From the NCBI RefSeq assembly GCF_018736105.1, contig NZ_CP076135.1, positions 4,834,001 through 4,898,000 on the forward strand: a DNA stretch of 64,000 nt. The letters are read 5' to 3'. The notes beneath the pieces were generated by a model. It worked only from the letters and a program-made list of their open reading frames with translations. It was not told the origin of the DNA and ran no database searches. Shown here piece by piece: positions 43,149 through 58,021 of the stretch. Source of the stretch: Bradyrhizobium sediminis. GTDB taxonomy: Bacteria; Pseudomonadota; Alphaproteobacteria; Rhizobiales; Xanthobacteraceae. Both the position numbers and the translations under genes were made by a program. The stretch's first letter is position 1, and each line of letters opens with the position of its first letter.

Positions 43149-43538
43149 TCACGTCACGCAGCGGCCGGGCTCAAGATGCTTCGCGACTTCGGTCAGCACG
43201 CTGACCACGGGCTCGCAGGCCACCGCCGTCTTGCGGTCCCCGGATTTGGTCACGGCCGGAGCGGCGGGCGTGTTGCGCGCGTCCTTGGCGACCGGCACGC
43301 GGACCAGGACCGAGGTATCGGCAAGGCTGTCCAGGCGCAGCGAGATCGTGCGAGCCGCCGCCGCAGGACCGACACCGGCAGCGCGATCGGCCTTGGCGGC
43401 ACGATTGACGGAGGTTGCCGGCGCGCGCGTGACGGCCTGCCAGCGGTCTGCGAGATCGTGGCCGAAGGCCAGCGGAACCGCACCAAGCACAAGCGCAATG
43501 CCGGCCGCGCCGAAAATTCCCCTGGAAATCTGTGACAT
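43149..43538 (-). CDS. Exported hypothetical protein, 129 residues
   Basis: A signal peptide (MSQISRGIFGAAGIALVLGAVPLAFG) is followed by an Ala/Arg-rich low-complexity mature region with a terminal CEPVVSVLTEVAKHLEPGRCV that contains a Cys pair. Similar small proteins with this ending are common in Bradyrhizobium, without known function. Codon use fits the host. It is the last host gene before the small RNA and the integrated element. Confidence 0.75.
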   Translation of the reverse strand: MSQISRGIFGAAGIALVLGAVPLAFGHDLADRWQAVTRAPATSVNRAAKADRAAGVGPAAAARTISLRLDSLADTSVLVRVPVAKDARNTPAAPAVTKSGDRKTAVACEPVVSVLTEVAKHLEPGRCVT

Positions 43539-43646
43539 GTGCGTTGGTCCCTCGCCCCGTGGCGATCAAGGAAACAACGTGACCGGACCAGCGGAGTTCG
43601 GGGACCGGCCATCACTTAACTGTGTGCGAAAAAATTCGAGAAGGCG

Positions 43647-43672
43647 GGAACGAGTCCGGGGACCTCGGCGTC
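43647..43672 (+). promoter_or_regulatory. EcfG-like promoter of the small RNA
   Basis: GGAAC (43,647-43,651), 17 bases, CGTC (43,669-43,672). One mismatch in the -10. Start of transcription would fall near 43,679. Confidence 0.5.
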
Positions 43673-43715
43673 ATCAGAACAGCCGGTCATCCCCCCTGCC
43701 CCATTGACCGGTGAT

Positions 43716-43758
43716 GCAGGGCGCGGCTGTGGTGATGCCAGCCGCGCCCTGCTTTTTT
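43716..43758 (+). terminator. Terminator of the small RNA, overlapping the left att core
   Basis: A 13-bp perfect stem (43,716-43,728 with 43,740-43,752) and T43,753-43,758. The loop and the 3' arm belong to the 25-bp att repeat; the T-run beyond 43,753 belongs to the element. Confidence 0.85.
43729..43753. repeat. attL, 25-bp direct repeat
   Basis: Starts GTGGTGATGCC and ends GCCGCGCCCTGCT; identical to 58,061-58,085. Flanking bases differ on both sides, which fixes the limits. Confidence 0.9.
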
Positions 43759-43966
43759 GCGTTGAATTAATTGAATAAATTACATCGTCGGACTTTCCCG
43801 TCCCTACTCTCGTCCCTACGCTGGACGAACAGAAAAAGGGGGCTCGAAGCGCATCTGCTCAAAAACCCAAAACCGACATCCACACAAAGTTAACCCAATC
43901 GGTTGATTTCTTTTCGGATGGGGTGTAGCGTTTTCTCTGGGGCGATTCGCGCCTTGGAGGTGTCCC
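43754..43966. other. Left end of the element, promoter region of its regulator
   Basis: 213 bp without a gene. It is AT-rich and contains the subterminal motifs and GTTAACC-caatc-GGTTGAT, an imperfect inverted repeat that may be the operator of the XRE regulator. GGAGGTGT lies just before the regulator ATG. Confidence 0.5.
43799..43825. repeat. Left subterminal repeat, candidate integrase arm site
   Basis: CGTCCCTACT repeated after a CT spacer, then CGCTGGA-like end. A similar double copy in the same orientation lies at 57,913-57,945, close to the other end of the element. CAAAGTTAACC also occurs at both ends (43,884 and 57,984). Confidence 0.5.
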
Positions 43967-44875
43967 ATGCTCACACCGTTTGGAATTGCCGTTCGCAAAC
44001 TCCGGCTCGACAAAGGCATGAGGCTACTCGACCTTGCCGAAGCCACGGGGCGGAGTTCTGCCTTCATCTCCGCCATAGAAACCGGACGAAAACCGATACC
44101 GGACGCGTATCTGCTGAGCGTAGCGCGTGCGATGAAATTATCTGCTGCGGAGATACGGGAATTGCGCCGCGCCGCAGACCGTACGCGCAAGGAAGTTCCG
44201 GTAGCGACTCTGCCAGCCGATCAACGGGAGTTGGTTGCTGCGTTCGCACGCAAAATCGACGAATTGCCTTTGTCGATGATGGCGGACCTAAAGAAGGTCA
44301 TCCTGAAATCGAAATCGGACGACGTGCCCTTTCATCGAAAGAGGCGCGGCATCTACGTGCCCCCGATGTCAACCGAGGTGATCCGTGGATTCGCGGAGAA
44401 AGTCCGCTCAACGTTTGTGGATAATGAGCGCATCGATTTTCCGATCATGGAAATCCTGGAATTTAAGATGGCTAGTTTGCTCGATGGTTTCCATGTTGAT
44501 GTCCAAGACAAGGAATCCATGGGGAGCGAAGAAGGTCGAGTCGTTGCGGGAGAGAACATCATCGTTCTGAGGGAAGATGTTTACGAGGGCGCGTGGAAAG
44601 AAAATGGACGCGACAGGTTCACAGCTTGCCATGAGTTCGCGCATTTCTTGATGCACCGGACGGTCACGATGGCGCGGATGCGTGATGATGGCGAGAAGAT
44701 TTATTGTGATGCGGAGTGGCAAGCTGACACGTTTGCGGGTTCGCTTCTGATGTCCACTCGTCACCTCTCTCGCTTCAAAAGCCCGGATGATGCGGCAGTC
44801 CAGTGCAAGATGAGCGCTCCGGCTGCGGAAGTCATGTGGACAAAATATCAAGCGGAGGGACGCTTCGGACAATAG
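43967..44875 (+). CDS. XRE regulator fused to ImmA/IrrE metallopeptidase
   Basis: 302 residues. Residues 4-65 are a Cro/CI-type helix-turn-helix (RLLDLAEATGRSSAFISAIETGRK). Residues about 140-290 are an ImmA/IrrE domain with zinc motif HEFAH (His222, Glu223, His226). In integrative elements such pairs control excision: the peptidase cleaves a repressor after DNA damage. Here both activities are on one chain. It stands at the left end, reading into the element, and has a strong GGAGG site. Confidence 0.9.
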   Translation: MLTPFGIAVRKLRLDKGMRLLDLAEATGRSSAFISAIETGRKPIPDAYLLSVARAMKLSAAEIRELRRAADRTRKEVPVATLPADQRELVAAFARKIDELPLSMMADLKKVILKSKSDDVPFHRKRRGIYVPPMSTEVIRGFAEKVRSTFVDNERIDFPIMEILEFKMASLLDGFHVDVQDKESMGSEEGRVVAGENIIVLREDVYEGAWKENGRDRFTACHEFAHFLMHRTVTMARMRDDGEKIYCDAEWQADTFAGSLLMSTRHLSRFKSPDDAAVQCKMSAPAAEVMWTKYQAEGRFGQ

Positions 44876-45038
44876 CTAAAGAGCCGCCGGATGGTGAGAC
44901 ACCCGACGGCTCCGTAAACCGCTCCGCATGGATAGAGAGCCAATGCGGAACCGGGCCTTGCTAGGCGATTCGATCTTGTTCGTGACGCTGCCTGCGGTCA
45001 ACCCCGGCTCTCGTATATACCTGAGATGGAGAGCCGAA

Positions 45039-45392
45039 ATGGCAAATCAGGAAACATGCACGTGGACCGGGAAATCCGGTGCCAAATACCTCTACCACGT
45101 CTATCCCCGCCACCCCAGCATCACGCCGGGGCAGGATGGGAACTACATCTACGCTAAGAAGAATGGTCAGGGGTTGTGGGTTCCCATTTACATGGGCGAG
45201 GGCGATCTTTCTCAGAGAGCATCATCGACTAATCACCACAGAGCCGAATGCATCGATCTAAAGGGGGCGACGCATGTCCATCTTCGCCTCAATCCGACGA
45301 AAGAAAGTCGGCGCGCGGAAGAAATGGACCTTCTCGCCAACTACACCAACGCACTCGCCCCGAACGGTTGCAACCTCAGTCCAACTGGATAG
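45039..45392 (+). CDS. GIY-YIG-like nuclease domain protein, small
   Basis: 117 residues from ATG 45,039, with GGAGAG upstream. NYIYAKKNGQGLWVPIYMGEG reads as the GIY and YIG strands, followed by a basic HHRAECID helix, GATHVHLRL and a Glu-rich EEMDLLANYTNALAPNGCN. These correspond to the GIY-YIG fold, and I recall related sequences in Bradyrhizobium islands. Activity is not proven: the second motif is YMG, not YIG. A terminator follows. It may be a defence or homing-type nuclease, or a DNA repair helper. Confidence 0.65.
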   Translation: MANQETCTWTGKSGAKYLYHVYPRHPSITPGQDGNYIYAKKNGQGLWVPIYMGEGDLSQRASSTNHHRAECIDLKGATHVHLRLNPTKESRRAEEMDLLANYTNALAPNGCNLSPTG

Positions 45393-45402
45393 TCCAAGCA
45401 TT

Positions 45403-45434
45403 CAAAGCCCGGCAGCTATGCCGGGCTTTGTCTT
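45403..45434 (+). terminator. Terminator after the GIY-YIG-like gene
   Basis: CAAAGCCCGGCA, loop gcta, TGCCGGGCTTTG, then TCTT. A 12-bp perfect stem ten bases after the stop. Confidence 0.8.
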
Positions 45435-45475
45435 GGGTTTGCATGAAGTCTATCAGACGCGCGGAGGACGCTGAA

Positions 45476-45760
45476 ATGCCAAAGTACAAGGTCGCTCATA
45501 TTCATGAGCAAGGACAGGACATGATTATCTTCCCGCTCGATGCGCGATTCGGTTACATGAGCGATTCAGATCAGCATGAGGAACTGACCGCTCTTGGGTT
45601 TAGGGCCAACGCTGCGGGTCTGCGAGGCACTGCGGTTGCAGTTTGGGATGCCGGTGGTGGCCGCATGGGCTTTATGGGGCCGCAGCAATGGCACCCATTC
45701 CTTCGGAGCATAAACCTTCGATTTGTGATGGCGAATTTGAACAAAGAGGTTTATTGGTAG
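45476..45760 (+). CDS. Hypothetical protein, 94 residues
   Basis: ATG 45,476 with GAGGA eight bases upstream; the longer frame through 45,248 overlaps the previous gene and its terminator. The protein, MPKYKVAHIHEQGQDMIIF..., is a soluble alpha/beta chain with DMIIFPLDARFGYM and GTAVAVWDAGGGRMGFMGP. I do not recognise a family. It is followed by a convergent 53-residue frame. Confidence 0.6.
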   Translation: MPKYKVAHIHEQGQDMIIFPLDARFGYMSDSDQHEELTALGFRANAAGLRGTAVAVWDAGGGRMGFMGPQQWHPFLRSINLRFVMANLNKEVYW

Positions 45761-45773
45761 CTGACTGCACGGT

Positions 45774-45935
45774 TCAATTTTCTGCTTTCTGTCCGGGCAC
45801 CCGGCGACGACGCGCCGCATAGATCGTCTTCTTCACCCTTCGAACTATAGCCTCCGGATCATGCAAGCCAGCTTCATAGTGTTTTGCAATTTGTCCAGCG
45901 GCCCTCACCCATTCGCTTCTAGAAAACTTACGCAT
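45774..45935 (-). CDS. Small basic protein, 53 residues
   Basis: ATG 45,935 has GGAG six bases upstream; TGA at 45,774. The sequence starts MRKFSRSEWVRAAGQIAKHYEAG and ends in an Arg-rich run (YAARRRRVPGQKAEN). Strongly basic and helical, it could bind DNA or RNA. No family is recognised. It is convergent with the 94-residue gene, 13 bp apart. Confidence 0.45.
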   Translation of the reverse strand: MRKFSRSEWVRAAGQIAKHYEAGLHDPEAIVRRVKKTIYAARRRRVPGQKAEN

Positions 45936-46083
45936 TTCCAACTCCACGGCTGATCGCTTTTCCGATGGTGCATCTACACCCTAGGGAGCCTTAGAGCAAT
46001 CTACGCAAACTTTGCGCAGTGGTGCGCAACTGATGCGTATCCCACCTCCATTTCTGAAAATGGAATTCACCAAGGAAGTGCGC

Positions 46084-46254
46084 ATGGCCATTCACTTTGA
46101 TGGGCGTCGGCCTGCCAACATCCGCGACGACGCTTTCAAAAACGGCGCTGATGTTTTCAAAAAACGCGTGCAGAAACATATTTATGGCCGATGGTTAATC
46201 ACCCCTGAAACCAAGTTGGCTTGCGCCCGGCCGAATGAATGTTTTTTCGCGTAG
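46084..46254 (+). CDS. Possible small protein, 56 residues
   Basis: ATG 46,084 with AAGGA eight bases before it. MAIHFDGRRPANIRDDAFKN is plausible protein text, but the last third overlaps a degraded gene on the other strand. No family. Weak support. Confidence 0.3.
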   Translation: MAIHFDGRRPANIRDDAFKNGADVFKKRVQKHIYGRWLITPETKLACARPNECFFA

Positions 46255-46471
46255 CGTACTTCTGCAAGCGCTCCACCGTCGCATCCGAAGCCGTCAAACC
46301 GCCGAAGCTCTCCCCGCCGATTTGCAGCGTGAACGAACGCCCGCCGCCGGAGCCGCCGCGCCAGCCATGACAAAGGTCACCCGCAGCGAAGGATGGGATT
46401 AGCGGGAGCATCACGTTGACCAAGACGCCCAAGTGAAAGATATGAGGATGAGGCTGAAGACGTTTGGACAA
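46199..46471 (-). pseudogene. Remnant of a phage tail tape-measure protein C-terminus
   Basis: The frame contains LPLIPSFAAG and then GGGRSFTLQIGGESFGGLTASDATVERLQKYATRK, followed by SAGRKPTWF. This closely follows the C-terminal ends of tail-length tape-measure proteins from Bradyrhizobium prophages as I recall them. It has no start signal, lacks the long helical body, and seems to be joined across a deletion near DLCHGWRGG. It suggests that a fuller prophage once contributed DNA here. Confidence 0.35.
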
Positions 46472-46597
46472 GGCTGCGCCCGTGGCATGTATAGCCTTTG
46501 TCGCTCCGACTTATTTACTATCCGGCAAAACAGGGCGTAGCAAAACTTGGTCGAAACATGCATAGTCCAACTCTACCTATCGAGCGCGGACTAGCAA

Positions 46598-47317
46598 ATG
46601 GCCGATGATAATAATATCGAACGCATTGCGACGAAGATCGAAGCATTAAGTGAAGCGGCACTGAGTGCGCGCAGTTCGTATCTTCTCAGTGAACTAGGAA
46701 AAGACCTAGGTCCTGATCTATCAACGCTAAAACTTCTTACGAAGAAACCTCTCAGCGCATTTATTCGAGAGCGGTTCTCTGACAAGTTTACTGTGGCTCT
46801 CACAGGCGAATTCAAGAATGTTCAGACGCTGATACGCTCTCCAAATTCTTTGGTCGAGCAACAGGAGCAGCCCTTACTTACGCTCTCTGAAAAGTTTGTT
46901 TTTGAGACACAGGTATCATCAAAGCCTAGTCCTCGCTTCAATTATCGTTTTTGGGCGGCCTTCTCCGTACCCTATCGCGAAGGTAAACGTTTTTTGAATC
47001 TAACGGATTTCAAGTTTCAGGACCTCACTTCGGGGGATGCTCCTGAGGGACACGTGGAAATTCCACCATCGTTCATCGTTGCGCCGGACATTAGAGACCG
47101 CGACAAGTTGATTACCGACAACATCAATCGCTGGATCGAAGAAAACGGTTTCGATAAATCTGACTTTTATCAAACGCGTCCTCATAGGGAAAGTATTCAG
47201 ACGCATTCGAACGCGTCCGTTCTGGAGGCCGTGATTGCTAGTTTAGATCATCGACAACTCTCTAATACATCTATGAGTCTCGACGTGGTTGCGGCCTTAA
47301 TGCGCAAAAGAGTCTAG
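46598..47317 (+). CDS. Unknown protein A of a two-gene low-GC cassette, 239 residues
   Basis: Codon use and GC are clearly lower than in the host. The first 70 residues are helical and charged (DDNNIERIATKIEALSEAALSARSSYLLSELGKDLG). The middle has FNYRFWAAFSVPYREGKRFLNLTDFKFQDL, a beta-rich segment, and the end is helical. No motif or membrane span is recognised. It is followed two bases later by a second unknown gene, so both form one unit. Cargo of this kind in phage-like elements is often anti-phage defence; that is inference only. Confidence 0.65.
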   Translation: MADDNNIERIATKIEALSEAALSARSSYLLSELGKDLGPDLSTLKLLTKKPLSAFIRERFSDKFTVALTGEFKNVQTLIRSPNSLVEQQEQPLLTLSEKFVFETQVSSKPSPRFNYRFWAAFSVPYREGKRFLNLTDFKFQDLTSGDAPEGHVEIPPSFIVAPDIRDRDKLITDNINRWIEENGFDKSDFYQTRPHRESIQTHSNASVLEAVIASLDHRQLSNTSMSLDVVAALMRKRV

Positions 47318-47319
47318 TC

Positions 47320-48198
47320 GTGGCTTATTCGCTGGTTGTTGCTGGTCTAACGACACCGCTTTTTGACCGCATCCGCAAAGTCTCAGACAAGCTACTTGCT
47401 CCAAGCGGAGCTACTATCATTACGCCAGTATCTGACCACAGGCGTTACGAGAGAAAATACATCGACCGGATACTTAGGGCAGCTCATGAGTACGCCAAGG
47501 GACAAAATGAAAGCGAGCCTGTTTCAACCCTGCTAATCTATATTGATTATGAGGATCAATCGACCACAGATTTGTTGGACGCCTTTTTCCCTTTCGGCCT
47601 TCCATTTGCTTTGAATCCTCCCGACTTTAGCGAAGCTAGTAACCGACAACAGATTAGCAACGTTTTGAATGAGTTTACTGATGAGGTGATAGACGCTGCT
47701 AGAGAGGTGCGAGGCTTATCTCGCGTCGTATCGGAGTTTACCAACGTACACAACTTAACACCTTTACTTTTGCCAATTCGAAACTTTCGATCTGACAAGC
47801 TGAAGTCAACGCTTCGAGACCTTTACAGCGGACTCTCAGATTCCGAAGACGCCAAGAAATTTATCGACTCCGCCGTAAAAGGTTTCGTGGCAGAGCACCC
47901 TCGCGTTTACGCGCCCGACGACCATCATCACTGTTTTAGCGACGGCTATTTGTATTTTAGGAGTCCGGGAAGAGATCGCCACGCCATCTTTCGTAATGCA
48001 GCAGCGGACAGTCATAGTCTAGCGTGCCTGCTAAATGCGCGAAGTCGAATGGGCGGTCACTATCCCGCAAACTTTCACTATGATTGCGTCGCAACGAATG
48101 GTTCGCTGGCTGATCGTTACCCAAACTGCCACGATGTAGGGACAGCGAGCAGTAAGAAGACGCACGTCAACATCGCTCCGAACGATTTCATTCGATAA
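47320..48198 (+). CDS. Unknown protein B of the two-gene cassette, 292 residues
   Basis: GTG start two bases after the previous stop. Residues 1-130 look like an alpha/beta sensor or NTP-related fold (YSLVVAGLTTPLFDRIRKVSDKLL... STLLIYIDYEDQSTTDLLDAF). The C-terminal third is rich in His and Cys in an ordered way: DDHHHCFSDGYLYFRSPGRDRHAIFR, HYPANFHYDC, YPNCHD, KKTHVNI. This resembles a metal or nucleolytic active site, but I cannot name it. A hairpin terminator follows directly. Low GC marks recent transfer. Confidence 0.65.
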   Translation: MAYSLVVAGLTTPLFDRIRKVSDKLLAPSGATIITPVSDHRRYERKYIDRILRAAHEYAKGQNESEPVSTLLIYIDYEDQSTTDLLDAFFPFGLPFALNPPDFSEASNRQQISNVLNEFTDEVIDAAREVRGLSRVVSEFTNVHNLTPLLLPIRNFRSDKLKSTLRDLYSGLSDSEDAKKFIDSAVKGFVAEHPRVYAPDDHHHCFSDGYLYFRSPGRDRHAIFRNAAADSHSLACLLNARSRMGGHYPANFHYDCVATNGSLADRYPNCHDVGTASSKKTHVNIAPNDFIR

Positions 48199-48208
48199 AA
48201 AAAATAAA

Positions 48209-48236
48209 GCCGGTGGAACTATATCGTTCCACCGGC
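48209..48236. terminator. Bidirectional terminator after the cassette
   Basis: GCCGGTGGAAC, tatatc, GTTCCACCGGC. The plus side is followed by CAATTCTTT, and the minus side by TTTATTTTTTTT, so it stops transcription from both directions. Confidence 0.75.
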
Positions 48237-48822
48237 CAATTCTTTGCTTGCCTTTTGAACAACAGGATTATGCCTAGAAGCACCCTCTATGGTTCAGGAC
48301 ACATCCTCGCACCTACGGATCGCGGTGGCCATCGTGGAGACATCCTGCAGGACGAGGTCCACAATCTAACCACCGAAAACGCGCCTCGGTTAGCCGCAAG
48401 CTACTAACCTTGACTTCGGAAGGCTTTCCAGAGCTTCCCTTGGGGGAAGCTCTAGTCTGCTCGTGCGTGCTCAATGATAACCTTATGCAGCCAATTATGT
48501 TTCATGGCAAGGGCCTAGGGGGCGAATGTTTCTCATGCCCGCGCCAAATTGCACAACGTTCTTAACAAGATAGTAAGGGGGCGGGCGACTTCAACCCCTC
48601 CTGCTTGCGATTCTTCTTGGGTTTTCCATCGTTTCGGACCCCGCACACTAGGACTTTGTTCCTCGTCTGCTGGTGTCAGCCAAAACGGGCGTCTAACTGC
48701 AACCTATCAGGTAGCCCGGCCATGTCCGTTCCCCATCGTTGAAATTCTCCAATCGGGATACCCCGGCGCGCGGGTGCTCTGTCTTGTACGAAGCTTCGCA
48801 ACAGGGAACGGATGAGAAGACT
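48237..48822. other. 586-bp region without a convincing gene
   Basis: It holds a perfect 10-bp hairpin AGAGCTTCCC/GGGAAGCTCT (48,430-48,453) with no U-run, and distant arms CCGTTCCC (48,726) and GGGAACGG (48,804). Open frames of 64 and 88 residues lack ribosome sites and sensible sequence. It may contain an RNA, but I could not fold one. Confidence 0.5.
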
Positions 48823-49830
48823 CTAAAATGAACTTCCTGAATTTGGTCGCAACGGAATACCCGATGCCCTCAACAGCGTTTTGAAATGAGACTTGCCTAT
48901 GTTGTCGAGCAAACGTTCCACGCTCCGCTTGGCCAATGGTGATGAATGACTAGGTCCAAGAATGATGCGCTCTAAGATTCCTTCAAGCGCGAGGTCATTA
49001 GCACTCACCCCCGGCATGTGTCCGATTGTGTACTTGAGCTTCGGTTCAACGCCACGTTCGCCGATGTGATACTTGAGAAATTGTTTCAAGACACCCTTGG
49101 CGTCGCGCTCCGGTACATAGATGACTCGCCACTCGTTCTCTTCTGAAAATCCTGCATGCTTTGTCACAAGAGCGTGGGATTTTATTAGGGTGAACGCGAC
49201 ATAGGATGCGAGATGCAATCTGTCGGGAGGCAGGTCGAGCTTTAGCGTAAGCTCAATCCAATTCTCTAAAATCCCTTGCACCTGTCCTACTCGTTGAGCA
49301 TCGGTTACATACGATACTTTCGCGAATAGAAGCGGGGACTCCGGTACCACGGTTATCTTCGAAGAATCGAAAACGAGCGCGGCCCCGTTGCCATGCTGGC
49401 CGTAGCCACGCCACATCGAGAGCAAACCGTCATTGTTATCCGGTGCATGTTCAGTCAGGCAGAAAATATACGTGTCAAACGCTTGCTGTTCATCGAAGTG
49501 ATTAAAGTAATGAAAATAGGCGCGCTGAAGAATGTCGGCACGCGCATCATTCCCACCGGCTTTTTTAAGGTGTTCGACGTTTGAAAAGAATCTTGTTCCT
49601 TCGTTCAAGCCGAAGCGCATCTCTTGAAGGTCGTTCATAAAGAGCGGGTTGGAGAACCATATCTCGCTCGACTGAAGTATGTTCTCCATCACCCGTATCG
49701 ACGTGTAGTGCGCCAGTAGAGGTCGCACGCTGTCATTGGTGTGCGTTTTTTCGAGCCCTCCAAAGAGCGGATTGAACAGCGCGACCACCTGTTGATCGTT
49801 CAACGGCGGGGTTGAATTTTGGTCCGACAT
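48823..49830 (-). CDS. DUF2971 protein, possible abortive-infection factor
   Basis: 335 residues from ATG 49,830 (TAGGA upstream). DUF2971 marks are LAHYTSIRVMENILQSSEIWFSNPLFMNDLQEMRFG, SMWRGYGQHGNGAALVFD and SEENEWRVIYVP. DUF2971 proteins occur often in defence islands and prophage cargo, and similarity to ADP-ribosyl-transfer-like folds has been suggested, but activity is not known to me. Transcribed away from the iteron region. GC is below the host mean. Confidence 0.82.
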   Translation of the reverse strand: MSDQNSTPPLNDQQVVALFNPLFGGLEKTHTNDSVRPLLAHYTSIRVMENILQSSEIWFSNPLFMNDLQEMRFGLNEGTRFFSNVEHLKKAGGNDARADILQRAYFHYFNHFDEQQAFDTYIFCLTEHAPDNNDGLLSMWRGYGQHGNGAALVFDSSKITVVPESPLLFAKVSYVTDAQRVGQVQGILENWIELTLKLDLPPDRLHLASYVAFTLIKSHALVTKHAGFSEENEWRVIYVPERDAKGVLKQFLKYHIGERGVEPKLKYTIGHMPGVSANDLALEGILERIILGPSHSSPLAKRSVERLLDNIGKSHFKTLLRASGIPLRPNSGSSF

Positions 49831-50398
49831 CGCATGTCCTAGACATTTTTCGGGAAGCAAACTTACAGCGATTCGCTGCCTCCCACCTTGTTCTTAGGTT
49901 ACAGGTAGCCTGAAAATATTTTCAATTTTGCTGATCGAGTCCCGCGCCTCCGTTTTGCCCGCATTGCTTTTTTGGCGTGGAGGGACCCGTTGCTTTGAAA
50001 ATATATTTTGAATTTCGAGAATCAGACGACGCTATTTCTTATCAGCGGAAATATTTCGATGGGTGAGTGAGGTTCGGCGACGATGCGATACCAAGTGTCA
50101 CACGTGTCCCCGAAGTGTCACAGCATCCTTAGGGACGCCTAGGCTTTTGATTTCAGTATATATTCTCCTGATTTTATAGACTGTCACAACGTCACAGCAC
50201 TAAACTAGATAGAGCATCGCGCTATAGTCCGTATCATCACATGCGCTGCCGCAGATGTAGCTACAAGGATTCTCCCGGAGCTAGGTGGAAACGCTGTGAC
50301 GCTGTGACAGTGGCCAGAATCGACCTATTTCGCAATGAAATCAAAGCACTAATCGGCACAAGGGCTGTTGTGACACCTTGTGACACCTTGTGACGCTA
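49831..50398. other. Iteron-rich region, possible replication origin of the element
   Basis: Nine copies of TGTGAC/GTCACA occur in 300 bp: four read GTCACA (50,095, 50,115, 50,182, 50,190) and five read TGTGAC (50,294, 50,302, 50,368, 50,378, 50,388). The last three are spaced exactly ten bases. An AT-rich stretch (50,145-50,180) lies between the two groups. The adjacent minus-strand gene encodes a P4-type primase-helicase, which in phage P4 binds iterons at its own origin. Confidence 0.55.
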
Positions 50399-52276
50399 TC
50401 AGTCTTCGGCCGTGGTCCATTCGGCCCTGAGCTTCACACCGGCAAACCCGCGCGTCTTCACACCCTCACCGTGCTTCCATTCCGCAAGCGCCCCATCCAG
50501 CCGCCGACGCCTTTGAGTGTATCGCACACCGCGTTCGGTCAGCGCCGCCATCAGGTCGTTCTTGAAGTCTGATTTGTTTCGCGTCTCCCGTGCGCTCATG
50601 CCCTCAATAGAACGCGCCCAATGTTCATAGACCGGGAACAGCACATCGTCCGGGATGAAGTCAGCTTTGTCGCCCGTCACGATCAAGGATTCGTTAGCGA
50701 ACCGCAGCGCCGGGCTCTGAGACTCCGCAAGCTCGCGTTGCGCCTTGCGCCCGCGCTCCCCGATGGCGAACTTGTTGCTATTCGCCCGCAACCGGCGCAA
50801 GCCTTCGATGGCCCAATTCGCGATGCCGCTCAGTTCGGCCTTCAGCTTGCCGCCTAGCTCCGTGTCCTTGACCTTCGCGAAGGAGGACTCGAACACCAAC
50901 ACCAATTCACGATCGGCCAGCGCGCCGGACTCGTCTAGGAATTTGGGATGCTTGTTTGCAACCAAGACGATTTTGGCCGGGACCTTCAGAGAGAGCATGG
51001 ATTGATTCTTGCGATTCACGCTCACTTCGTCGTTGCCGGTGATGCTCTTGATACGCTCGATTGCAGCCGAACGGCGCGACAGGTCCGCGTCGTGCGCGTC
51101 CGGAATAAAGATCGCGCGCTTGTCGATTAGTCCGGCGAGTCCAAAGTCACCGGCCAAATCGTTCAACATCACTGAAGCGTGGTGCTCCTTGCCGACCAAC
51201 GCTTGCATGATGCGCGTGATGGTACCCTTGCCGCCACGCTTCGCGCCGATCATAGCCAAGAGCACTTCAATCGAAGTGTCTGCGGTGAGCATGTAGCCGA
51301 AAAATTCCTGTAGCGTTGCATGGAACGATGGGTGCAGCCATTCCCCAAGCTTCTCTAGCCAAAGCGGACATTCCGCTTCAAGTTCGTACTTCCAATCGGG
51401 AAGCCCCGTAGCGAAGTAGCGCCCGGAGTGTGGGATAAGCTCACCCGTTTTCAGGTTCAAGATTCCATTTGATGTTAGAATCAGATCGTTCGCGTCCGGA
51501 GCGCCTTCCGGCCTATCGATCCACTCAAACGGCCGCGCTTTTGTGAAGCGCACAAGGTGAATCGCGTTGACCATCTGATAGATTTTGCCGACGTCAAGAA
51601 TCGTCGTCGGGTCCGTTGCCCGAATCTCTGCGGCCAATTCGTTGTCATCAAGCCGTCGCCAGACGCGGTTGCCTTCCAACGTGTAAAGTACACCATCAGA
51701 CGAAAGCAGCTTGTCAGGACGTTCGGCAAGAAAGCCTTCAGCGCATTTGCTGGCGTTGTCCTTGCCCTGGTATGTCAACGGCTTGGGCCATACGCGCGGC
51801 GCTTCGTCGCCGCCGTCATCGGCATTCGTCCAAGGATTGTCATCATCCGATGACACCAAGGCGGCAACGGCGTTCGCATTGGCGCGGCCCGCGCGGCTCA
51901 ACACACCGGGGACGCTCATTGCGGCCCGGTACGCGCGATGGCATTCCAGAGAGACCGACGCCTTGGAGATTTGGCTTGTGCAGTAGCGGTCCATCAAATC
52001 AAGGGCCGTCCGCTCGCTGATGCCAAGATCGCGGGCATCATGGGAGAGTTGATAGAAGAACGCCAGCCCCGTAGCGTTGGGAAGCGGAAAGTGCGCGGCG
52101 TCCTGACAACGGCGCTTGAACTCCGCGATGTCTATTGCGTTGTCCCAACCGTGCTTGGGCACGGGGCCGGACTCGGGTTCCGAAAAGAACTCCAAATCCG
52201 CGTCCGGCGCTTCGACAACACTGACCTTTGTTACTTGGATTTCGATTTCGTTCCGATTAGATTGCGCGTCTGACAC
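50399..52276 (-). CDS. P4/D5-type primase-helicase
   Basis: 625 residues, GTG start with AAGGAG eight bases before it. The SF3 helicase part has Walker A GAKRGGKG (344-351), Walker B-like IFIPDAHDADL and the D5-N region before it (LILTSNGILNLKTGELIPHSGRYFATGLPDWKYE). It unwinds and primes the element's DNA for replication. The N-terminal primase catalytic text is weak, so it may be helicase with a reduced primase part. It lies next to the iteron region, matching a P4-like replication module. Confidence 0.85.
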   Translation of the reverse strand: MSDAQSNRNEIEIQVTKVSVVEAPDADLEFFSEPESGPVPKHGWDNAIDIAEFKRRCQDAAHFPLPNATGLAFFYQLSHDARDLGISERTALDLMDRYCTSQISKASVSLECHRAYRAAMSVPGVLSRAGRANANAVAALVSSDDDNPWTNADDGGDEAPRVWPKPLTYQGKDNASKCAEGFLAERPDKLLSSDGVLYTLEGNRVWRRLDDNELAAEIRATDPTTILDVGKIYQMVNAIHLVRFTKARPFEWIDRPEGAPDANDLILTSNGILNLKTGELIPHSGRYFATGLPDWKYELEAECPLWLEKLGEWLHPSFHATLQEFFGYMLTADTSIEVLLAMIGAKRGGKGTITRIMQALVGKEHHASVMLNDLAGDFGLAGLIDKRAIFIPDAHDADLSRRSAAIERIKSITGNDEVSVNRKNQSMLSLKVPAKIVLVANKHPKFLDESGALADRELVLVFESSFAKVKDTELGGKLKAELSGIANWAIEGLRRLRANSNKFAIGERGRKAQRELAESQSPALRFANESLIVTGDKADFIPDDVLFPVYEHWARSIEGMSARETRNKSDFKNDLMAALTERGVRYTQRRRRLDGALAEWKHGEGVKTRGFAGVKLRAEWTTAED

Positions 52277-52352
52277 TGCTTCGACTCCTTTGGCCCGGCA
52301 CCGTTGACGCGGTGGCCGGGCTCATTCTCGAATCACTGTCAAAGACCGCACT

Positions 52353-53372
52353 TCAACGGGCGGCAATCGTTGGATTGATCCACACTTCCCAACCGGAAAT
52401 CTCAAAATCATCGGTGCGGGACGATATCAAGCGCAGTGTGTCCGGGCTGACATTATCGCGTTCGTGCGGGACTAAGGCCATCCAGCGCCCTTGCGCCGCA
52501 AGACGGCACGCCAAGTGCGCTAGGGTTGTGGCGGACGGTGTGTAATCGAAGACTCCATCCGCTTCGGTGTAATAGCCCCCAACGCCGTCTTCGCCATCGA
52601 CGATTTCCCCGACGATCCAATAGCGATTGTCCGAACGTATTTCCCAAATTGGAGTTGGCTCCTTCATTTTGTTTCGTACGTTGTAAATTCGGAACACTTC
52701 CGGGCGGAAACCCGTTGCCAAGACCTTCGCGTACATCGCGCGCTTGGCGTAAAACATCGTGGCGAAGTGCTGCGGCATGGTTTCGCCCAATCGGAGCGAC
52801 AAATACTGACGCATGGGATTTCCGATCAGCGATCCATCGACGTCACGTTCCCAATGCCTGAAATTCAGGTCGAATGATTGGGCTACGGCGGGGATCAGCC
52901 GCGCGTCCTCAGTATCGAAATGGAGAAGAAGGCCGGACATGAGATTCGGAATATTCCACTTGTGGTCTTCTTCAGAGTAGAAATCACAGTGAAGGTAACC
53001 ATCCAAACCTTGTGCCTTCAACTTGGTAAAGAAATACGGCACATCATCCAATGTAACGTCACGATGGAAAAAACCATCGCCGATGGCCACTTCACCCTTG
53101 TAGACGTAAAACTGTGACAATGTCTGACCGGTCATCGCGTAATATTTTGCGACAGATTCCACTTGCTTTTGCATGGCATAGAAATATTTGACGGACTCCG
53201 GTTTGGCGGGGACTTCCATCCCGGTTGCAAGCGGAATGATATGTTCGCGTCCGCCGCTAAACTCGCGCCATTTGCAATCGATAGCCTTCCAAACACGACC
53301 CGCGCCGAACGGTGCCGGACGTTTCAACGCAACTGTTGGCCTCACCGTCCGCATTTTTATCGCCATTCCCAT
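52353..53372 (-). CDS. Phage-type hypothetical protein, 339 residues
   Basis: ATG 53,372 was chosen for GGAG eight bases upstream; the frame extends nine residues further. Features are KAIDCKWREFSGGREHIIPL, ESVAKYYAMTGQTLSQFYVYKGEV, HCDFYSEEDHKWNIPNLMSGLLLHFDTEDARLI and a hydrophobic SATTLAHLACRLAAQG. I recognise no domain. The context, between a primase and a capsid module on the same strand, suggests replication or regulation for the element. Confidence 0.6.
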   Translation of the reverse strand: MGMAIKMRTVRPTVALKRPAPFGAGRVWKAIDCKWREFSGGREHIIPLATGMEVPAKPESVKYFYAMQKQVESVAKYYAMTGQTLSQFYVYKGEVAIGDGFFHRDVTLDDVPYFFTKLKAQGLDGYLHCDFYSEEDHKWNIPNLMSGLLLHFDTEDARLIPAVAQSFDLNFRHWERDVDGSLIGNPMRQYLSLRLGETMPQHFATMFYAKRAMYAKVLATGFRPEVFRIYNVRNKMKEPTPIWEIRSDNRYWIVGEIVDGEDGVGGYYTEADGVFDYTPSATTLAHLACRLAAQGRWMALVPHERDNVSPDTLRLISSRTDDFEISGWEVWINPTIAAR

Positions 53373-53456
53373 TGTCGTCACTCCAAACGCTACCGCCATT
53401 TATTGATTTCATACTATTGAATTGAATCAACTCCGTTCTCCAGTAACGAAGCTCCC

Positions 53457-53669
53457 CTAGTGCAGTCGGGTCCGATACCACCGCTCGCGAACATTCGTAC
53501 GGTAGTAATCAACTGCATGCGACGCGAACAGCTTGCGCGTCCCCTCTTGTTTTTCTACGGGCGGAAACGCCGGGTCCATGCATGATAGCCAATAGGTGTA
53601 TGCAAGGCTTTTGCGGAGTTTCCGCGCGACGGCTGGAAATCCAATCAATCGATCACTTCGCCGTTTCAT
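53457..53669 (-). CDS. Small DNA-binding protein, AlpA/excisionase-like
   Basis: 70 residues, basic. LIGFPAVARKLRKSLAYTYWLSCMDPAFPPVEKQEGTRKLF reads like the winged helix of AlpA/Xis proteins: IGFPAVA for the first helices, then the PAFPPV wing. Such proteins guide excision and repress or activate the integrase gene. Its ATG overlaps the stop of the preceding 94-residue gene (ATGA). Confidence 0.5.
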   Translation of the reverse strand: MKRRSDRLIGFPAVARKLRKSLAYTYWLSCMDPAFPPVEKQEGTRKLFASHAVDYYRTNVRERWYRTRLH

Positions 53670-53950
53670 GGCCGGACCATCTTGGCGAACGCCTTGGCAC
53701 CGATGCGCGCCAGCGCCTTGGCGTGCGGCGGAGTCGATGCTTCAGCCTCGTTTAGCTCCGCGCGCATCGCGGCGTTGACGCGGAAACGATCAACTTCCGG
53801 AACGTCGGCGACATCGGACACGCCCGCAGTAGCGCGGAGGAACGCTTTCAGCGCGTCCGGACCCCGCAGCGCTGCGAACTCACGCGCCGTGAGTGTGATT
53901 CGGTTGGGGCTGCAAGCTCCCCCGCCAACGGCAAATGAAATGGCCTTCAT
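53666..53950 (-). CDS. Hypothetical protein, 94 residues
   Basis: ATG 53,950 with GAGG eight bases upstream. The sequence is Ala-rich and helical in its second half (NEAEASTPPHAKALARIGAKAFAKMV), with PNRITLTAREFAALRGPDALKAFLRATAG in the first. No family recognised. It is 148 bp after the capsid gene and coupled to the AlpA-like gene, so it is probably part of the element's structural or regulatory set. Confidence 0.6.
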   Translation of the reverse strand: MKAISFAVGGGACSPNRITLTAREFAALRGPDALKAFLRATAGVSDVADVPEVDRFRVNAAMRAELNEAEASTPPHAKALARIGAKAFAKMVRP

Positions 53951-54098
53951 CGTCAATCCTCTTTGGTTTTGAAATGAAAGGCCGGGATGTTGACGGAGAA
54001 GAAACAACATCCCGGCCAGTGGCGTCCGTGATCGAAGGAGGGAATCCAGGCGTTGAACTTCTAAGCCGCAAGGATTCCGGCGATCATGGACGATTCGA

Positions 54099-55145
54099 TT
54101 AGCTGATCGTTCCTTTGCACAACGTTGCCGGGCGCAAGCACAACGGAAGCGGATTCGTCTGCGCTTCCAGTTCCACAAATTTTTGGAACTTCGGATCAAC
54201 CGCAATCTTTGCATAGCGCGGAAGTCCGGGAGTGTTCACCGTTTCGATGTAATCGGCCGGTGCGTAGGACTCCGAATAAAGTTCTGGCGCGTTGGCGAAG
54301 AAGAACCGGCACTCGTTTGGATCAACAGCTATCGTGCTGTTGTCGTCACTGCCCTGATAGTTCTCCCACACGATGCCGCCGTGCTCGAAAACGCCGAACG
54401 CGTAGTTGCCGCCCAAAACCGCAGCGGCATTGTCGCTGCCGCGATATGCGTCCTTCACGTCGGCATGAGAAATCAGCTTATCGAAGAAGTTGTCGCCGCA
54501 GAATGCCCACGGAAGCGCATCACGCGGCAGGATGGTCTTCGCGTGGCGGCGCATGTAGCGAGTCACGTCTTGAGCCTTGAGCCGCACATCAACCGCCGGG
54601 TTGTTAAGGTCGAAGTTGAACGGCTCCGGTGCCGCAAAGCCAAGCGAATTGAGATAGCCGAACGCGCTGTAGATGTCGGTCAACACGCTCCCATCAGCAT
54701 CGCGAATAACGCCGAGAACCGCACCAAGGCGGTGATGCTCAAGCGTGAAGTCCAGCCGGTGCGCGATCTTCGTCAGGCTCTTGTTGACTGCGCTCTCCAC
54801 CGTGGTCAGTTGGTTGGACGTTCCGAACTGGCGAACGTTCTGCACCGAGTCGGCATAGATCGTGTCTTCAAGCTGGATATGCGGGATGTCCAGACTGATC
54901 ATCGACCGTTTGTCGCCAAGGAGTTTTTCGGCCGGTGCGCCCCGTGCCGTTGTCTGAATCAGCTTCAGGTCTTCGCCGACGCGCTCGATCACCACAGAAA
55001 GGGTGTTGACCGGCTTGAGAACGTCCTGACTGGCAAACACAAGCTGGCCCGCACGGCCGGGGATATGATCCACTTCGTTGATGGCAGCGGAAAGCGACTG
55101 CATTGTGAACGCGTCGCCGCTGAAAAGATCGGTGAAATTGTCCAT
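54099..55145 (-). CDS. Phage major capsid protein, gpE family
   Basis: 348 residues, normal for lambda gpE-like capsid proteins. The family text is clear: FTMQSLSAAINEVDHIPGRAGQLVF, RQFGTSNQLTTVESAVNKSLTKIAHRLDFTLEHHRLGAVLGVIRDADGS, AFCGDNFFDKLISHADVKDAYRG and ETVNTPGLPRYAKIAVDPKF near the C-terminus. It should build the shell of a capsid. No terminase, portal or protease is encoded nearby, so packaging must depend on a helper phage, or the gene is a relic. Confidence 0.88.
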   Translation of the reverse strand: MDNFTDLFSGDAFTMQSLSAAINEVDHIPGRAGQLVFASQDVLKPVNTLSVVIERVGEDLKLIQTTARGAPAEKLLGDKRSMISLDIPHIQLEDTIYADSVQNVRQFGTSNQLTTVESAVNKSLTKIAHRLDFTLEHHRLGAVLGVIRDADGSVLTDIYSAFGYLNSLGFAAPEPFNFDLNNPAVDVRLKAQDVTRYMRRHAKTILPRDALPWAFCGDNFFDKLISHADVKDAYRGSDNAAAVLGGNYAFGVFEHGGIVWENYQGSDDNSTIAVDPNECRFFFANAPELYSESYAPADYIETVNTPGLPRYAKIAVDPKFQKFVELEAQTNPLPLCLRPATLCKGTIS

Positions 55146-55185
55146 GACTCAAAATCCTTTGCTGAATGAATAGGTGTTGAAACTG

Positions 55186-56100
55186 TCAAACGGTGGCGCG
55201 CAGTGACATCACTGCAAGAATGGAAATATCGGGACGGTGATATGCAGTGCCGCCTTCGGCAATGATCCGCTCCACGCACGCGGCTTCGATCCTTTCGGCT
55301 GCATCCCGCTTGGCTTGAAGCTCCGCGAGCCGGGCGGCCTTCTCTTCGGCCGTCATTGCGTCCGGAAATGCGCGCGCATTGATCTTCAACAGGGCCGAAA
55401 TCTCAGCCTTCAGCTTGTCGCGCAGAAGGAACGCAACGAGCGCAATTCCGTCAGGCACTTTATGAAAGCTAGGGCCGTTGATTTCGTGGACCGGCCAATC
55501 AATACCAACGTTGGCGTTCGCGAACATCCGAAGTGTTTTCGGTAATCCGCGATTAGCGATCCGATCAATCTCCGCATGAGCCTGCCGTTCAACTTCTTCG
55601 AAGGTACGCGCCGCTTTTTCCCTCGCGGTGATCTCTTCGATAATGCCAAGTGATGCCTGCCGGAAGCGGGGCAAAGCGTCTACGGCCCGTTCGTTCTTGC
55701 CCAGCGGAAGCGAAGGCCGCTCCACCGGCTCCAAATTTGCGTATTTCGCTAGTTCCGTCTTGGCCCGTGCGGCGGTGAGGCGCGGCGTTTGTAAGGCGGC
55801 GCCGAGCAATTCCTTCTTCCGCCGAATTGAGTCTATGCGGGCATCGGCCGCCTTCAATCGCTTTTCGTCGCGCGTGCGATCCAGCGTCGCGTTACCGTGC
55901 TGATCACGTCCGCGCGTTTCATGAACTAGAGTGCCTTGGCGATCAGCGTCCGCCAGCCGGGCACGTTCTGCCAGCGCTTCGGCCTCTTCGCGGTTGGTGG
56001 CTTGCCGCTGTGCGGCGTGCAAACGGCTTGCCGCCGTAAGCTCTTCATCTTCGAATGAGAGGCGATCAAGAATGGCGGCGGCGGCTTCTGGGGAAATCAT
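55186..56100 (-). CDS. Coiled-coil protein upstream of the capsid gene, possible scaffold
   Basis: 304 residues, ATG with CGGAG upstream. Two long charged helical segments (residues about 15-100 and 160-200; EEAEALAERARLADADRQ, AAKA-rich) flank a central part, and the end is again helical (EEKAARLAELQAKRDAAERIE). The gene is 40 bp before the capsid gene. Position and composition fit a scaffolding or capsid-assembly protein, but no motif supports this directly. Confidence 0.55.
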   Translation of the reverse strand: MISPEAAAAILDRLSFEDEELTAASRLHAAQRQATNREEAEALAERARLADADRQGTLVHETRGRDQHGNATLDRTRDEKRLKAADARIDSIRRKKELLGAALQTPRLTAARAKTELAKYANLEPVERPSLPLGKNERAVDALPRFRQASLGIIEEITAREKAARTFEEVERQAHAEIDRIANRGLPKTLRMFANANVGIDWPVHEINGPSFHKVPDGIALVAFLLRDKLKAEISALLKINARAFPDAMTAEEKAARLAELQAKRDAAERIEAACVERIIAEGGTAYHRPDISILAVMSLRATV

Positions 56101-56179
56101 GTTGGCGAACTCCGGAAATGTGTCGTTCGCCGTCTAATATTCACACCTCCAGCTTCAGGTCACCACCGGATTACTAAAT

Positions 56180-56560
56180 TTAGTAGATCACTCCCCGCTG
56201 GCGAAGCTCAGCGTTTACGTCGTTGCGGTTCTTGCTAAGCGCGTTGTCGAGAATGGATCGCTTCCTGATGTTATACCGTTGGCAGACAACATCGCATGCG
56301 TCAGCGTCTTTCATCCCGCTGTCTGTAAGCCGCCTGTGCTCAAGAACCGCGTCGGCCAATTGCTGCGTTCGTGTCGAAGCCGGGCCTGTGGACCTTCGAC
56401 GAAGCGCAGCTTCTAAGCGCTCTTCATAGCCCGGTGGTGCGTAGCGCTGCATTAGTGAGCGAAGCGGGGAGTCGTCGCCGCGTTCCGCGCTTTGTAGCGC
56501 GGGCTCTAGTTCTTCAACCGCGAAATGTGCGGTTCGGGTACTTTCCGAATTAGAAGGCAA
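56180..56560 (-). CDS. Hypothetical protein, 126 residues
   Basis: A soluble, charged protein. The last 60 residues (DADACDVVCQRYNIRKRSILDNALSKNRNDVNAELRQRG) resemble a helix-turn-helix-like segment with a basic second helix. It may be a regulator of the structural genes. The gene lies 79 bp before the coiled-coil gene and 97 bp after the integrase on the same strand. Confidence 0.5.
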   Translation of the reverse strand: MPSNSESTRTAHFAVEELEPALQSAERGDDSPLRSLMQRYAPPGYEERLEAALRRRSTGPASTRTQQLADAVLEHRRLTDSGMKDADACDVVCQRYNIRKRSILDNALSKNRNDVNAELRQRGVIY

Positions 56561-56657
56561 TGTCGAAACTCAAAACAACAAATTGTTGAGTTTCAACGGT
56601 GGCCCGGAATGGGAATCCGATTCCAGTAACGAAGCTCAGCGGTGCGTCGTACGAAGC

Positions 56658-57875
56658 TCAACCCGCGCGGACGATCCGGAGCAGCTTGGACCCGCCGTCC
56701 ACGTAGCGTCCCCACGCTTCCATAAGGTGCCGCCGCTTCTCCAATGCAGTCCCGCGCCGGTATGCTTGCTCCACCTCGTCCCCGACCGCATGGGCCAGCG
56801 CCATTTCCGCGATGTCGCGCGGAGTGCTGGTTTCGTCGCCAGCCCAGTCCCTGAAACTGGACCGGCACCCGTGCGTGGTGATGCCGGGATAGACGGCTTT
56901 GAGCGCGTGGAGGACGGCGTTCATTCCGAGCGGCTGGCCCGGTTTGAGCCCGGCGAACACCCAATCATCCGGCTTGGCGTCCTTCGGAATAACGGCCTTC
57001 AGGATCGCGACGGCGCGGGCACACAGCGGCACTTCGTGGTCCTTCGGGAGCTTCATGCGAGCGGCCGGGATGGTCCACAGACGGGCTTTAAAATCGATTT
57101 CGGACACCTTCATGAACCGGCCTTCCCCCGTCCGCACGGCCGTTAGGATCACGTATTCGGCGGCTAGGTTCACGGCCGTATCCGCCCCGGCGTGCTTCTC
57201 CCGGAGAGCCCGCACGATCCGGGGCACGTCCTTGTAGGGCGCGGCCGGGTGGTGGCGCTTCTTCCGCTTCGTCGCTGGCAATAGCTCCTTCAGATGGCCT
57301 TTCCAGCGCGCGGGGTTTTCGCCGGAGCGCAGCCCCTTGGCTTTGGCGGCGTCTAGGATGCGTTCAATCCGACCACGGGTTTCCCGCGCCGTGCGGCTCT
57401 TGGTGAGCCACAGGGGCTTCAGGACGCCCAACACGTCATCCGTGCTGATGTCCTTGCATCGCTTGGGCCGAAGCGACGCGCACCGCACTTCAATGTCCCG
57501 CTTCCAATCCACGCCGCTGGACTTGTTCTTGAAGCCGGGCTTGATCGATTCCAAAAGTGCATCCGCGAACGTGCCGAAGGTGCCATCACCGGCCGCGCGT
57601 TCCGCTCTCTTCGTCGCCGCCGGGTCAACACCCCTACGCAACCCCGCGCGAAGCTCGCCAGCGCGTTCCCGCGCGTCGTCAAGGCTCACGCCACCGGACC
57701 CGGCCGAACCAAGCCCGGTGTCACGTTGTTTGCCCGTGCCGCGCTCCCGATACCTGAAAACCCATGAACGCGCGCCGCCGTCGCGGACCAGCAAATAGAG
57801 CCCGCCGCCGTCGCCGTATCGGCCCGGTGCAAGCCGGTTGCTCTTCACCGTAAGCGCGGTCAGCTTCTTCGCCAC
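56658..57875 (-). CDS. int: Tyrosine integrase, P4-like
   Basis: 405 residues from GTG 57,875, chosen because GGGAG lies six bases before it; GTG 57,890 is the longer option. The N-terminal DUF4102 arm-binding region (KLTALTVKSNRLAPGRYGDGGGLYLLV) is followed by a core domain and the catalytic set Arg248 (TAVRTGE), His335-x-x-Arg338 (THGCRSSF), His362 and Tyr372 (HAVGDEVEQAYRRG). It catalyses insertion into, and excision from, the att site in the small-RNA terminator. It sits 186 bp from the right att repeat. Confidence 0.93.
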   Translation of the reverse strand: MAKKLTALTVKSNRLAPGRYGDGGGLYLLVRDGGARSWVFRYRERGTGKQRDTGLGSAGSGGVSLDDARERAGELRAGLRRGVDPAATKRAERAAGDGTFGTFADALLESIKPGFKNKSSGVDWKRDIEVRCASLRPKRCKDISTDDVLGVLKPLWLTKSRTARETRGRIERILDAAKAKGLRSGENPARWKGHLKELLPATKRKKRHHPAAPYKDVPRIVRALREKHAGADTAVNLAAEYVILTAVRTGEGRFMKVSEIDFKARLWTIPAARMKLPKDHEVPLCARAVAILKAVIPKDAKPDDWVFAGLKPGQPLGMNAVLHALKAVYPGITTHGCRSSFRDWAGDETSTPRDIAEMALAHAVGDEVEQAYRRGTALEKRRHLMEAWGRYVDGGSKLLRIVRAG

Positions 57876-57912
57876 CTTGATCTCCCACACAGGGCGCGGC
57901 TGGCACCAATCG

Positions 57913-57945
57913 CGTCCCTACTTTCGTCCCTACTTTCGCGCTGGA
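57913..57945. repeat. Right subterminal repeat, candidate integrase arm site
   Basis: CGTCCCTACTTT occurs, then CGTCCCTACTTT again, then CGCGCTGGA; the same orientation as 43,799-43,825. Confidence 0.5.
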
Positions 57946-58021
57946 TCGTGAGAAAGCAAGACGGAGCGCAGCGGAGTTTCGATCAAAGTTAACCGCTAAA
58001 AACGGGCATAAATCAAGGGTT

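Follow-up and report, generated by a model that had tools for sequence, protein, structure and literature searches.

A predicted small-RNA gene of the stress type in Bradyrhizobium sediminis very probably carries, as its terminator, the attachment site of a clade of integrases, and this terminator is rebuilt upon insertion of the element. The gene is located on the forward strand of the window, i.e., the whole 64,000-nucleotide stretch of DNA that was analyzed. An EcfG-type promoter (43647-43672), recognized from its sequence and its conservation in aligned loci, is composed of GGAAC (43647-43651), a 17-nt spacer and CGTC (43669-43672). The predicted small RNA of about 80 nt (43679-43758) is based on folding and covariation, its 5′ end being placed from the promoter. 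Folding and alignment delineated hairpin I (43682-43712), whose arms (43682-43689 and 43705-43712) expose a C-rich loop of 15 nt, TCCCCCCTGCCCCAT (43690-43704). It is followed by an intrinsic terminator (43716-43758) supported by fold, alignment, covariation and the stems of occupied sites, with a perfect 13-bp stem (43716-43728 and 43740-43752), a loop GTGGTGATGCC (43729-43739) and six T (43753-43758), this U-tract being present on one side of the stem only. The promoter, the C-rich 15-base loop and the 13-bp stem with its U-run had all been claimed in a preliminary description and were all retrieved base for base. The region 43670-43762 folded with -46.7 kcal/mol (z -4.7), which none of 200 shuffles matched, while a crude terminator scan was uninformative alone (one found vs. 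1.0 expected).

GGAAC was unchanged in all 30 aligned rows of the genus, with a spacing of 16 or 17 and a -10 element of the form [AC]GTC. When 18 of the 19 loci from other genera were scanned, GGAAC-N16/17-NGT[CT] was found at an equal distance in 13 of them (CGTT in three, TGTT in two), and the pattern as written was not matched in the five others. The EcfG promoter consensus given for Rhizobium etli is GGAAC-N16-CGTT (PMC3892343, in excerpt). The -10 element of Bradyrhizobium reads GTC vs. GTT in the published consensus, and both forms occur within the family.

The RNA stretch was found by DNA search in 34 of 35 same-genus relatives and in none of 24 genomes of other families. A first covariance model was built from 24 rows, with compensatory change at seven pairs; covariance-model matches were obtained in 238 of 242 genomes of the genus, including the window's own, and in 61 of 198 genomes of a family sample, representing 13 of 47 genera. 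In alignment A4 (23 rows, of which other genera contributed 19), 99.0% of the cells were paired, both sides had changed at 10 of 22 pairs and covariation was seen in both helices. Its covariation score was reached by none of 500 shuffles, and its count of further pair types by 54 of 500. Under strict filters, a second model matched nine of 249 genomes at the level of the order, eight in the window's family and one, marginal, outside it (E 9.4e-4), and a single one of 240 genomes at the level of the class, namely the window's own. Since these scans gave almost nothing outside the family, the RNA looks confined to it. No Rfam 15 family was detected at its gathering threshold in the window, and 16 permissive Rfam matches at 43600-43800 (best E 0.0087), far under the thresholds, were judged to be chance. 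On comparative sequence grounds, the stretch 43647-43758 is a predicted small-RNA gene that belongs to the core of Bradyrhizobium and is shared by part of the family. Terminator loops usually vary freely, but the loop GGTGATGCC was invariant across the 23 rows of A4 while the terminator stem changed in a compensatory way. Hence, a separate function of this loop is probable, perhaps in a second pairing interaction, and would account for the reliance of the integrases on it.

The position of the gene is conserved as well. Downstream lie phyR (58215-59015, reverse strand; annotation search and synteny), which is convergent with the RNA gene, then nepR (59251-59496) and ecfG (59496-60041), both on the forward strand, and the gene of an HWE histidine kinase. 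Upstream, a small conserved gene of no assigned function (43149-43538, reverse strand), identified by neighbor comparison, adjoined the RNA in 30 of 30 loci of the genus, the window's included, and in 19 of 19 loci of other genera. Among 80 genomes of the genus with at most four contigs, phyR was downstream of and convergent with the RNA in 77, at a distance ranging from 103 bp to 163 kb (31 gaps below 1 kb, 10 at 1-2.5 kb, 10 at 2.5-5 kb, 13 at 5-10 kb, eight at 10-30 kb and five above 30 kb); the two were distant and co-oriented in the other three (G071, G196 and G017). phyR was also found within 14 of the 19 loci of other genera, mostly 80-215 bp off and once at 1.4 kb, and this short-gap order is taken as ancestral. 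In the window, the right copy of the attachment repeat (58061-58085) sits just before phyR, which would thus be the next gene without the 14.3-kb element, as had been proposed.

The RNA had been called GsrN-like, and part of this claim stands. In Caulobacter, the C-rich loop of GsrN pairs with a G-tract in the katG leader, and Tien et al. assigned GsrN to B. diazoefficiens and R. palustris by prediction, relying solely on closeness to the GSR genes and on an EcfG site (PMC5869019, in excerpt). The RNA described here shares with GsrN a putative EcfG-type promoter ahead of the gene, an exposed C-rich loop in its 5′ half, an intrinsic terminator and a place near the GSR locus, a synteny that is conserved. 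It differs by the lack of any clear sequence or structure homology outside the window's family under the strict filters used, and by the absence of the katG leader site. The preliminary description had also located GsrN near nepR-sigT-phyR in Caulobacter; this has to be corrected, gsrN of C. crescentus itself being distal to the GSR locus (same source). In the window's own genome, the predicted katG start is preceded by 200 nt devoid of GGGG, and one GGGG is located at +29. A search of this genome for the loop complement GGGGCAGGGGG gave six matches, one of them the RNA gene, and no match fell within a clear leader. In genome G212, presumably that of USDA 110, this RNA lies at 8536649-8536729 on the forward strand. 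None of the ten Northern-verified small RNAs of B. japonicum, BjsR1-10, is located at this position, provided that G212 is USDA 110 (PMC5082802); an earlier name for the RNA in the literature is possible.

Because the covariance searches stop at the family and the katG leader is without the G-tract, the RNA is GsrN-like by anatomy and place while its orthology to GsrN is unproven. We lean toward an RNA specific to the family that came to occupy the GSR locus independently and is GsrN-like by convergence, with targets of its own. Its apparent restriction to the family, the missing katG site and the second loop GGTGATGCC, invariant in 23 rows from several genera, point in this direction, although detectable homology of short RNAs fades quickly and the common C-rich loop, promoter and locus would fit descent too. 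A true orthologue of Caulobacter GsrN, acting likewise on katG, appears doubtful: it would agree with the promoter, the loop, the GSR-locus synteny and the prediction of Tien et al. (PMC5869019, in excerpt), but beyond the family the model built on the family finds only one marginal match under strict filters, the 200 nt preceding the predicted start of katG lack GGGG, and no Rfam family matches at threshold. It is very unlikely that there is no RNA gene at all and that a conserved hairpin, ending transcription near phyR, is targeted as an intergenic inverted repeat; the convergent phyR, mostly 80-215 bp off in other genera, would suit such a hairpin, but GGAAC stands at a fixed distance throughout the genus and mostly so beyond, a second hairpin with its C-rich loop is conserved and covariation affects both helices, and the U-tract occurs at one side only.

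The terminator of the small-RNA gene is also the left end of an integrated phage-type element (43754-58060; 14,332 bp including one attachment copy). Two identical copies of a 25-bp repeat, GTGGTGATGCCAGCCGCGCCCTGCT, occupy 43729-43753 and 58061-58085, both on the forward strand and spaced 14,332 bp, with none expected in shuffles. The left copy (attL core) covers the terminator loop and 3′ arm, as initially described, plus the first T of the U-tract, and the right copy constitutes the attR core. Exact copies of the 18-mer core are limited to these two in the whole genome of 5.45 Mb, and the interior of the element had no match in the relative L002. Two CGTCCCTAC repeats, 12 bp apart, are found at the left end (43799-43819, forward strand) and two more, equally spaced, at the right end (57913-57933, forward strand); these four matches, all at the ends of the element, are the only ones in the window, for 0.16 expected, and we infer them to be candidate integrase arm sites.

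The element encodes an HTH and ImmA/IrrE peptidase protein of the repressor/derepressor type (43967-44875, forward strand) and, on the reverse strand, a DUF2971 protein (48823-49860), a primase of phages or satellites (D5_N, DUF5906; 50399-52276), a phage major capsid protein E (54099-55145) and a tyrosine integrase of the site-tied clade (Arm-DNA-bind_3, Phage_int_M, Phage_integrase; 56658-57890). This integrase, with its arm-binding, central and catalytic domains, adjoins the attachment site. Carrying genes for HTH-ImmA, primase, capsid E and integrase within 14.3 kb, the element resembles either a phage satellite or a prophage in decay. In the window's element, PADLOC matched only the HTH-ImmA protein (CapP, CapH, RmrA, HTH_VI) and, weakly, the DUF2971 protein (PDC-S31); nothing was matched among 10 proteins of three other elements. 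Besides, an inverted partial copy of the core is present at the start of the integrase gene (57890-57908, reverse strand). It represents half of the terminator stem in inverted orientation, which perhaps reflects regulation of the integrase gene or an old nested insertion. In the MAG locus L177, a whole extra terminator stem lies between attR and the integrase gene, about 100 bp upstream of the latter.

Comparison of occupied and empty sites indicates where recombination would take place. The shared core is the 18-bp sequence GGTGATGCC[AG]G[CT]CGCGCC, with one-base differences in some hosts, and it overlaps the 3′ end of the predicted RNA. It is duplicated in occupied loci only, and relatives with an empty site exist. 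The initial proposal had suggested a comparison with relatives that lack the element, and their hairpin proved to be conserved: it is kept without a second core, and in both G252 and G021 the two flanks of the occupied locus align to the empty locus L030, where they overlap by 30 bp. The core of G252 is followed by CTGCTTTTTTC at attL and by TTACTTTTGTCTGG at attR, and the attR sequence matches the empty relatives. In G247, the 3′ arm differs, with CGTGCC at attL vs. CGCACC at attR, and therefore the crossover falls within GGTGATGCCGGTCG. The crossover is predicted to lie in the loop or at the beginning of the adjoining 3′ arm. Since attL and attR differ in G252, G021 and G247, the element appears to be the source of the lower 3′ arm and U-tract found at attL in these three genomes, an origin that is visible only where such a difference exists.

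Consistently, a stem formed in all 19 occupied sites (in G214 with a bulge), with a mean of -29.0 kcal/mol and 6.6 T in 10, and the 17 sites without a second core had a mean of -28.7 kcal/mol and 6.4 T in 10. When the element side was swapped for random nearby element DNA (380 draws), the stem dropped to -17.0 kcal/mol. The element thus restores the 3′ end of the RNA, and with its terminator rebuilt at attL, the RNA gene should survive insertion.

A genus-wide search, in which matches were fetched with their flanks, provided 16 integrases sharing at least 60% identity with that of the window, which is counted among them. All of them had the core 175-190 bp upstream of the integrase gene, on the opposite strand, and no core was found within 700 bp of any of 20 lower-ranked integrases (41-50% identity; chosen ranks, integrases already known beside an RNA being handled apart). 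In a tree of 41 chosen integrases, the 16 core-linked ones formed one clade (support 99/98). In 14 of the 16 stretches, phyR followed the core at a distance of 2.3 kb or less; in G149 it was about 6 kb further out, and in G065 it was not found within the stretch read. Sequence comparison thereby shows the terminator loop and 3′ arm to be the attachment site of a tyrosine-integrase clade. This agrees with the earlier suggestion that the integrase is adapted to a conserved small-RNA terminator, to which the 16 of 16 clade members with a core, the empty-site relatives and two further lineages, described below, all bear witness.

In the named GTDB collection, the best 80 of 166 confirmed loci included 11 integrases of at least 59% identity, all with the core when up to three mismatches were allowed and 10 with phyR in the locus. 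At least eight of these 11 loci belong to the same genomes as in the genus set, among them those of B. liaoningense, B. rifense, B. manausense, B. iriomotense and B. nitroreducens. Four weak core-like matches (at most three mismatches; L180, L189, L190 and L224) among the other 69 loci were judged to be chance. Among the 11, phyR is missing only from the locus on the B. barranii plasmid pBb1S5a (L183/L329; integrase 59% identical), whose core departs from the usual sequence after GGTGATGCCAGTCGCG; this integrase sits at a different, secondary site that shares GGTGATGCCAGTCGCG. The window-like integrase of the plasmid adjoins queuosine-type genes. A search of the family fetched 25 loci, three of which were set aside as already known or the window's own, and detected the core beside the integrase gene in one of the 22 scanned. 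It belongs to G395, from another genus, where a 63% identical integrase lies 13 kb from the RNA, with core and phyR; its attR is that of the MAG locus L177, so that both probably come from one genome. A core-like match in L343, from the same search, was judged to be chance. Among the 80 IMG/VR loci retained, three, on contigs of 55-59 kb, had a 63-64% identical integrase at one end, and the exact attP-like pattern gave no match in IMG/VR. Among phage records, 229 showed weak similarity to the integrase, which in no case extended over 80% of the query.

Integrases of two further lineages are found at this site. Those of G109 and G247 (43 and 50% identical) have the core 198-203 bp from their gene and pair in the tree (99/94), both on long branches flagged by the tree program. 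The integrases of G021, G166 and G172 (36-38%) form a trio (100/100), and their genes adjoin attL, about 200 bp from the RNA and on the same strand. The tree of 41 integrases needs just one change of site use. Hence, these lineages may have come to the site either through convergence or through old inheritance, and separate convergence was dropped as a claim since the tree does not require it. The elements themselves are diverse. Across five of 13.5-14.4 kb (window, G252, G021, G109 and G247), compared through open frames of at least 90 aa at E 1e-5, the integrase is the sole gene common to all; further genes are shared by pairs of elements, e.g., a primase by those of the window and G247, and a protein of about 316-319 aa is found in four of the five. 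By subtraction of attachment positions, the occupied loci span about 17 kb in G065, 28 in G072, 38 in G147, 53 in G166, 58 in G210, 67 in G214, 136 in G239 and 157 in G149, and the large ones may be composite. Elements at this site thus range from about 13.5 to 157 kb, with varied cargo. A scenario in which the RNA gene is not selected by the integrase, the elements having come by another route and the occupied locus spreading through homologous recombination, is extremely unlikely: phyR flanks are alike, so that whole loci could be exchanged, but the core is duplicated beside 16 of 16 integrases, the five elements of about 14 kb differ in gene content, with no gene but the integrase present in all, three integrase lineages are involved and a core-like site exists on a plasmid. 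In two elements at this site that are otherwise different, L031:906-2939 and L046:6392-8374 encode HATPase-type proteins of 661-678 aa, 27% identical to each other and without a PADLOC match.

From these comparisons, the following scheme can be proposed for the terminator as an attachment site. EcfG would transcribe an RNA of about 80 nt ending at the intrinsic terminator, and the C-rich loop of this RNA would pair with G-rich stretches of mRNA. Integrases of the clade would recombine at the terminator loop and 3′ arm, the incoming element bringing its own lower 3′ arm and U-tract so that the terminator is rebuilt at attL. The site may have been chosen because the RNA is a target that hosts cannot easily change, as suggested by a loop invariant across genera while the stem drifts. 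tRNA and ssrA genes would be comparable targets: they are conserved non-coding RNA genes with dyad symmetry, whose 3′ end is rebuilt by the element. The likeness extends to the conserved RNA, its dyad and its element-rebuilt 3′ end, whereas the dyad here is a transcription terminator. EcfG-driven transcription would reach, and sometimes pass, the crossover at attL, and we propose as a speculation, unlikely as it stands, that under general stress such read-through enters the element and gates its excision. It would reach the integrase gene in G021, G166 and G172, about 200 bp downstream on the same strand, or the HTH-ImmA gene in the window. SdsR is RpoS-dependent and likewise a general-stress RNA; if the proposal were true, RpoS and SdsR in gammaproteobacteria and EcfG and the GsrN-like RNA in alphaproteobacteria would be convergent cases of stress-gated lysogeny.

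Precedents exist for several parts of this scheme. The closest is prophage PhiW104 of Salmonella, whose attachment site is the last 23 bp of ryeB (SdsR) (Balbontin et al., 2008, as cited in the accessible part of PMC7380047), i.e., in both cases the 3′ end of a small-RNA gene. The two differ in class, sigma factor, RNA and sequence, and the ryeB site is also inside the antisense RNA RyeA; the site described here, moreover, is linked to one integrase clade throughout a genus and serves two additional lineages. No integration is mentioned for GsrN in the parts of PMC5869019 at hand. ReC64 of R. etli is also an EcfG-dependent RNA of the phyR region, with a consensus promoter and a mapped 5′ end, but it is downstream of tcrY, and it is likened here by description (PMC3892343, in excerpt). 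The dusA-associated integrases similarly combine one conserved target gene with diverse islands in which the integrase is the sole universal gene, their target being the 5′ end of a protein gene instead of the terminator of a non-coding RNA (PMC4482086, in excerpt). In the accessible parts of the open-access literature, no description of integration at a GSR small RNA, or of its integrase family, was found, including in papers on Sinorhizobium meliloti hot spots and Bradyrhizobium temperate phages. Hence, small-RNA genes as prophage sites and single-gene integrase families are already known, and the novelty is the site with its dedicated integrase clade. This gives Bradyrhizobium, the genus of soybean symbionts, a mapped integration hot spot that helps in finding prophages and satellites and in building integration vectors, as well as an RNA family defined by covariation and missing from Rfam 15. 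It also provides a second case of a stress-type small-RNA terminator serving as a docking site for mobile elements, and makes testable why such terminators get chosen, through an invariant loop and a drifting stem.

Occupancy was estimated in the 80 genomes sampled for synteny, by reading all 46 syntenic gaps above 1 kb (only the ends of the five longest), the three split loci and seven of the 31 gaps below 1 kb. A clear second core was found in 13 genomes (G000, G021, G231, G247, G162, G149, G210, G214, G147, G166, G071, G196 and G017), with an integrase beside a core in ten of them, the match in G214 being partial; G078 and G212 had doubtful second copies. No clear second core was detected in 34 to 36 of the 49 enlarged (>1 kb) or split loci. 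Gap size alone is therefore not evidence, most of its variation being due to something other than such insertions, and equating a large gap with an element was rejected. G231, which by its phyR is closest to the window of all 80 genomes, has about 970 bp between its two cores (L081) and no integrase match, apparently a decayed insertion.

Second matches to the RNA model occurred in eight genomes of the genus, some being attR copies and some including hairpin I: L050 1438-1513 (G081), G162:C1:6470163-6470232, G265:C488:6067-6143 and G065:C6:14780-14842, together with matches in G074, G166, G172 and G228. A stretch of G005 (C1:265810-265866) matches the promoter and hairpin I (77%) elsewhere in the genome and is possibly a paralogue. 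Finally, in G071, G196, G017 and G088 (L039/L121, L043/L122, L033/L123 and L044/L132, respectively), the RNA and attL are megabases away from the integrase gene, attR and phyR, and co-oriented with them, as if an inversion had broken inside the element. In G196, both ends of the element are almost equidistant from the contig ends.
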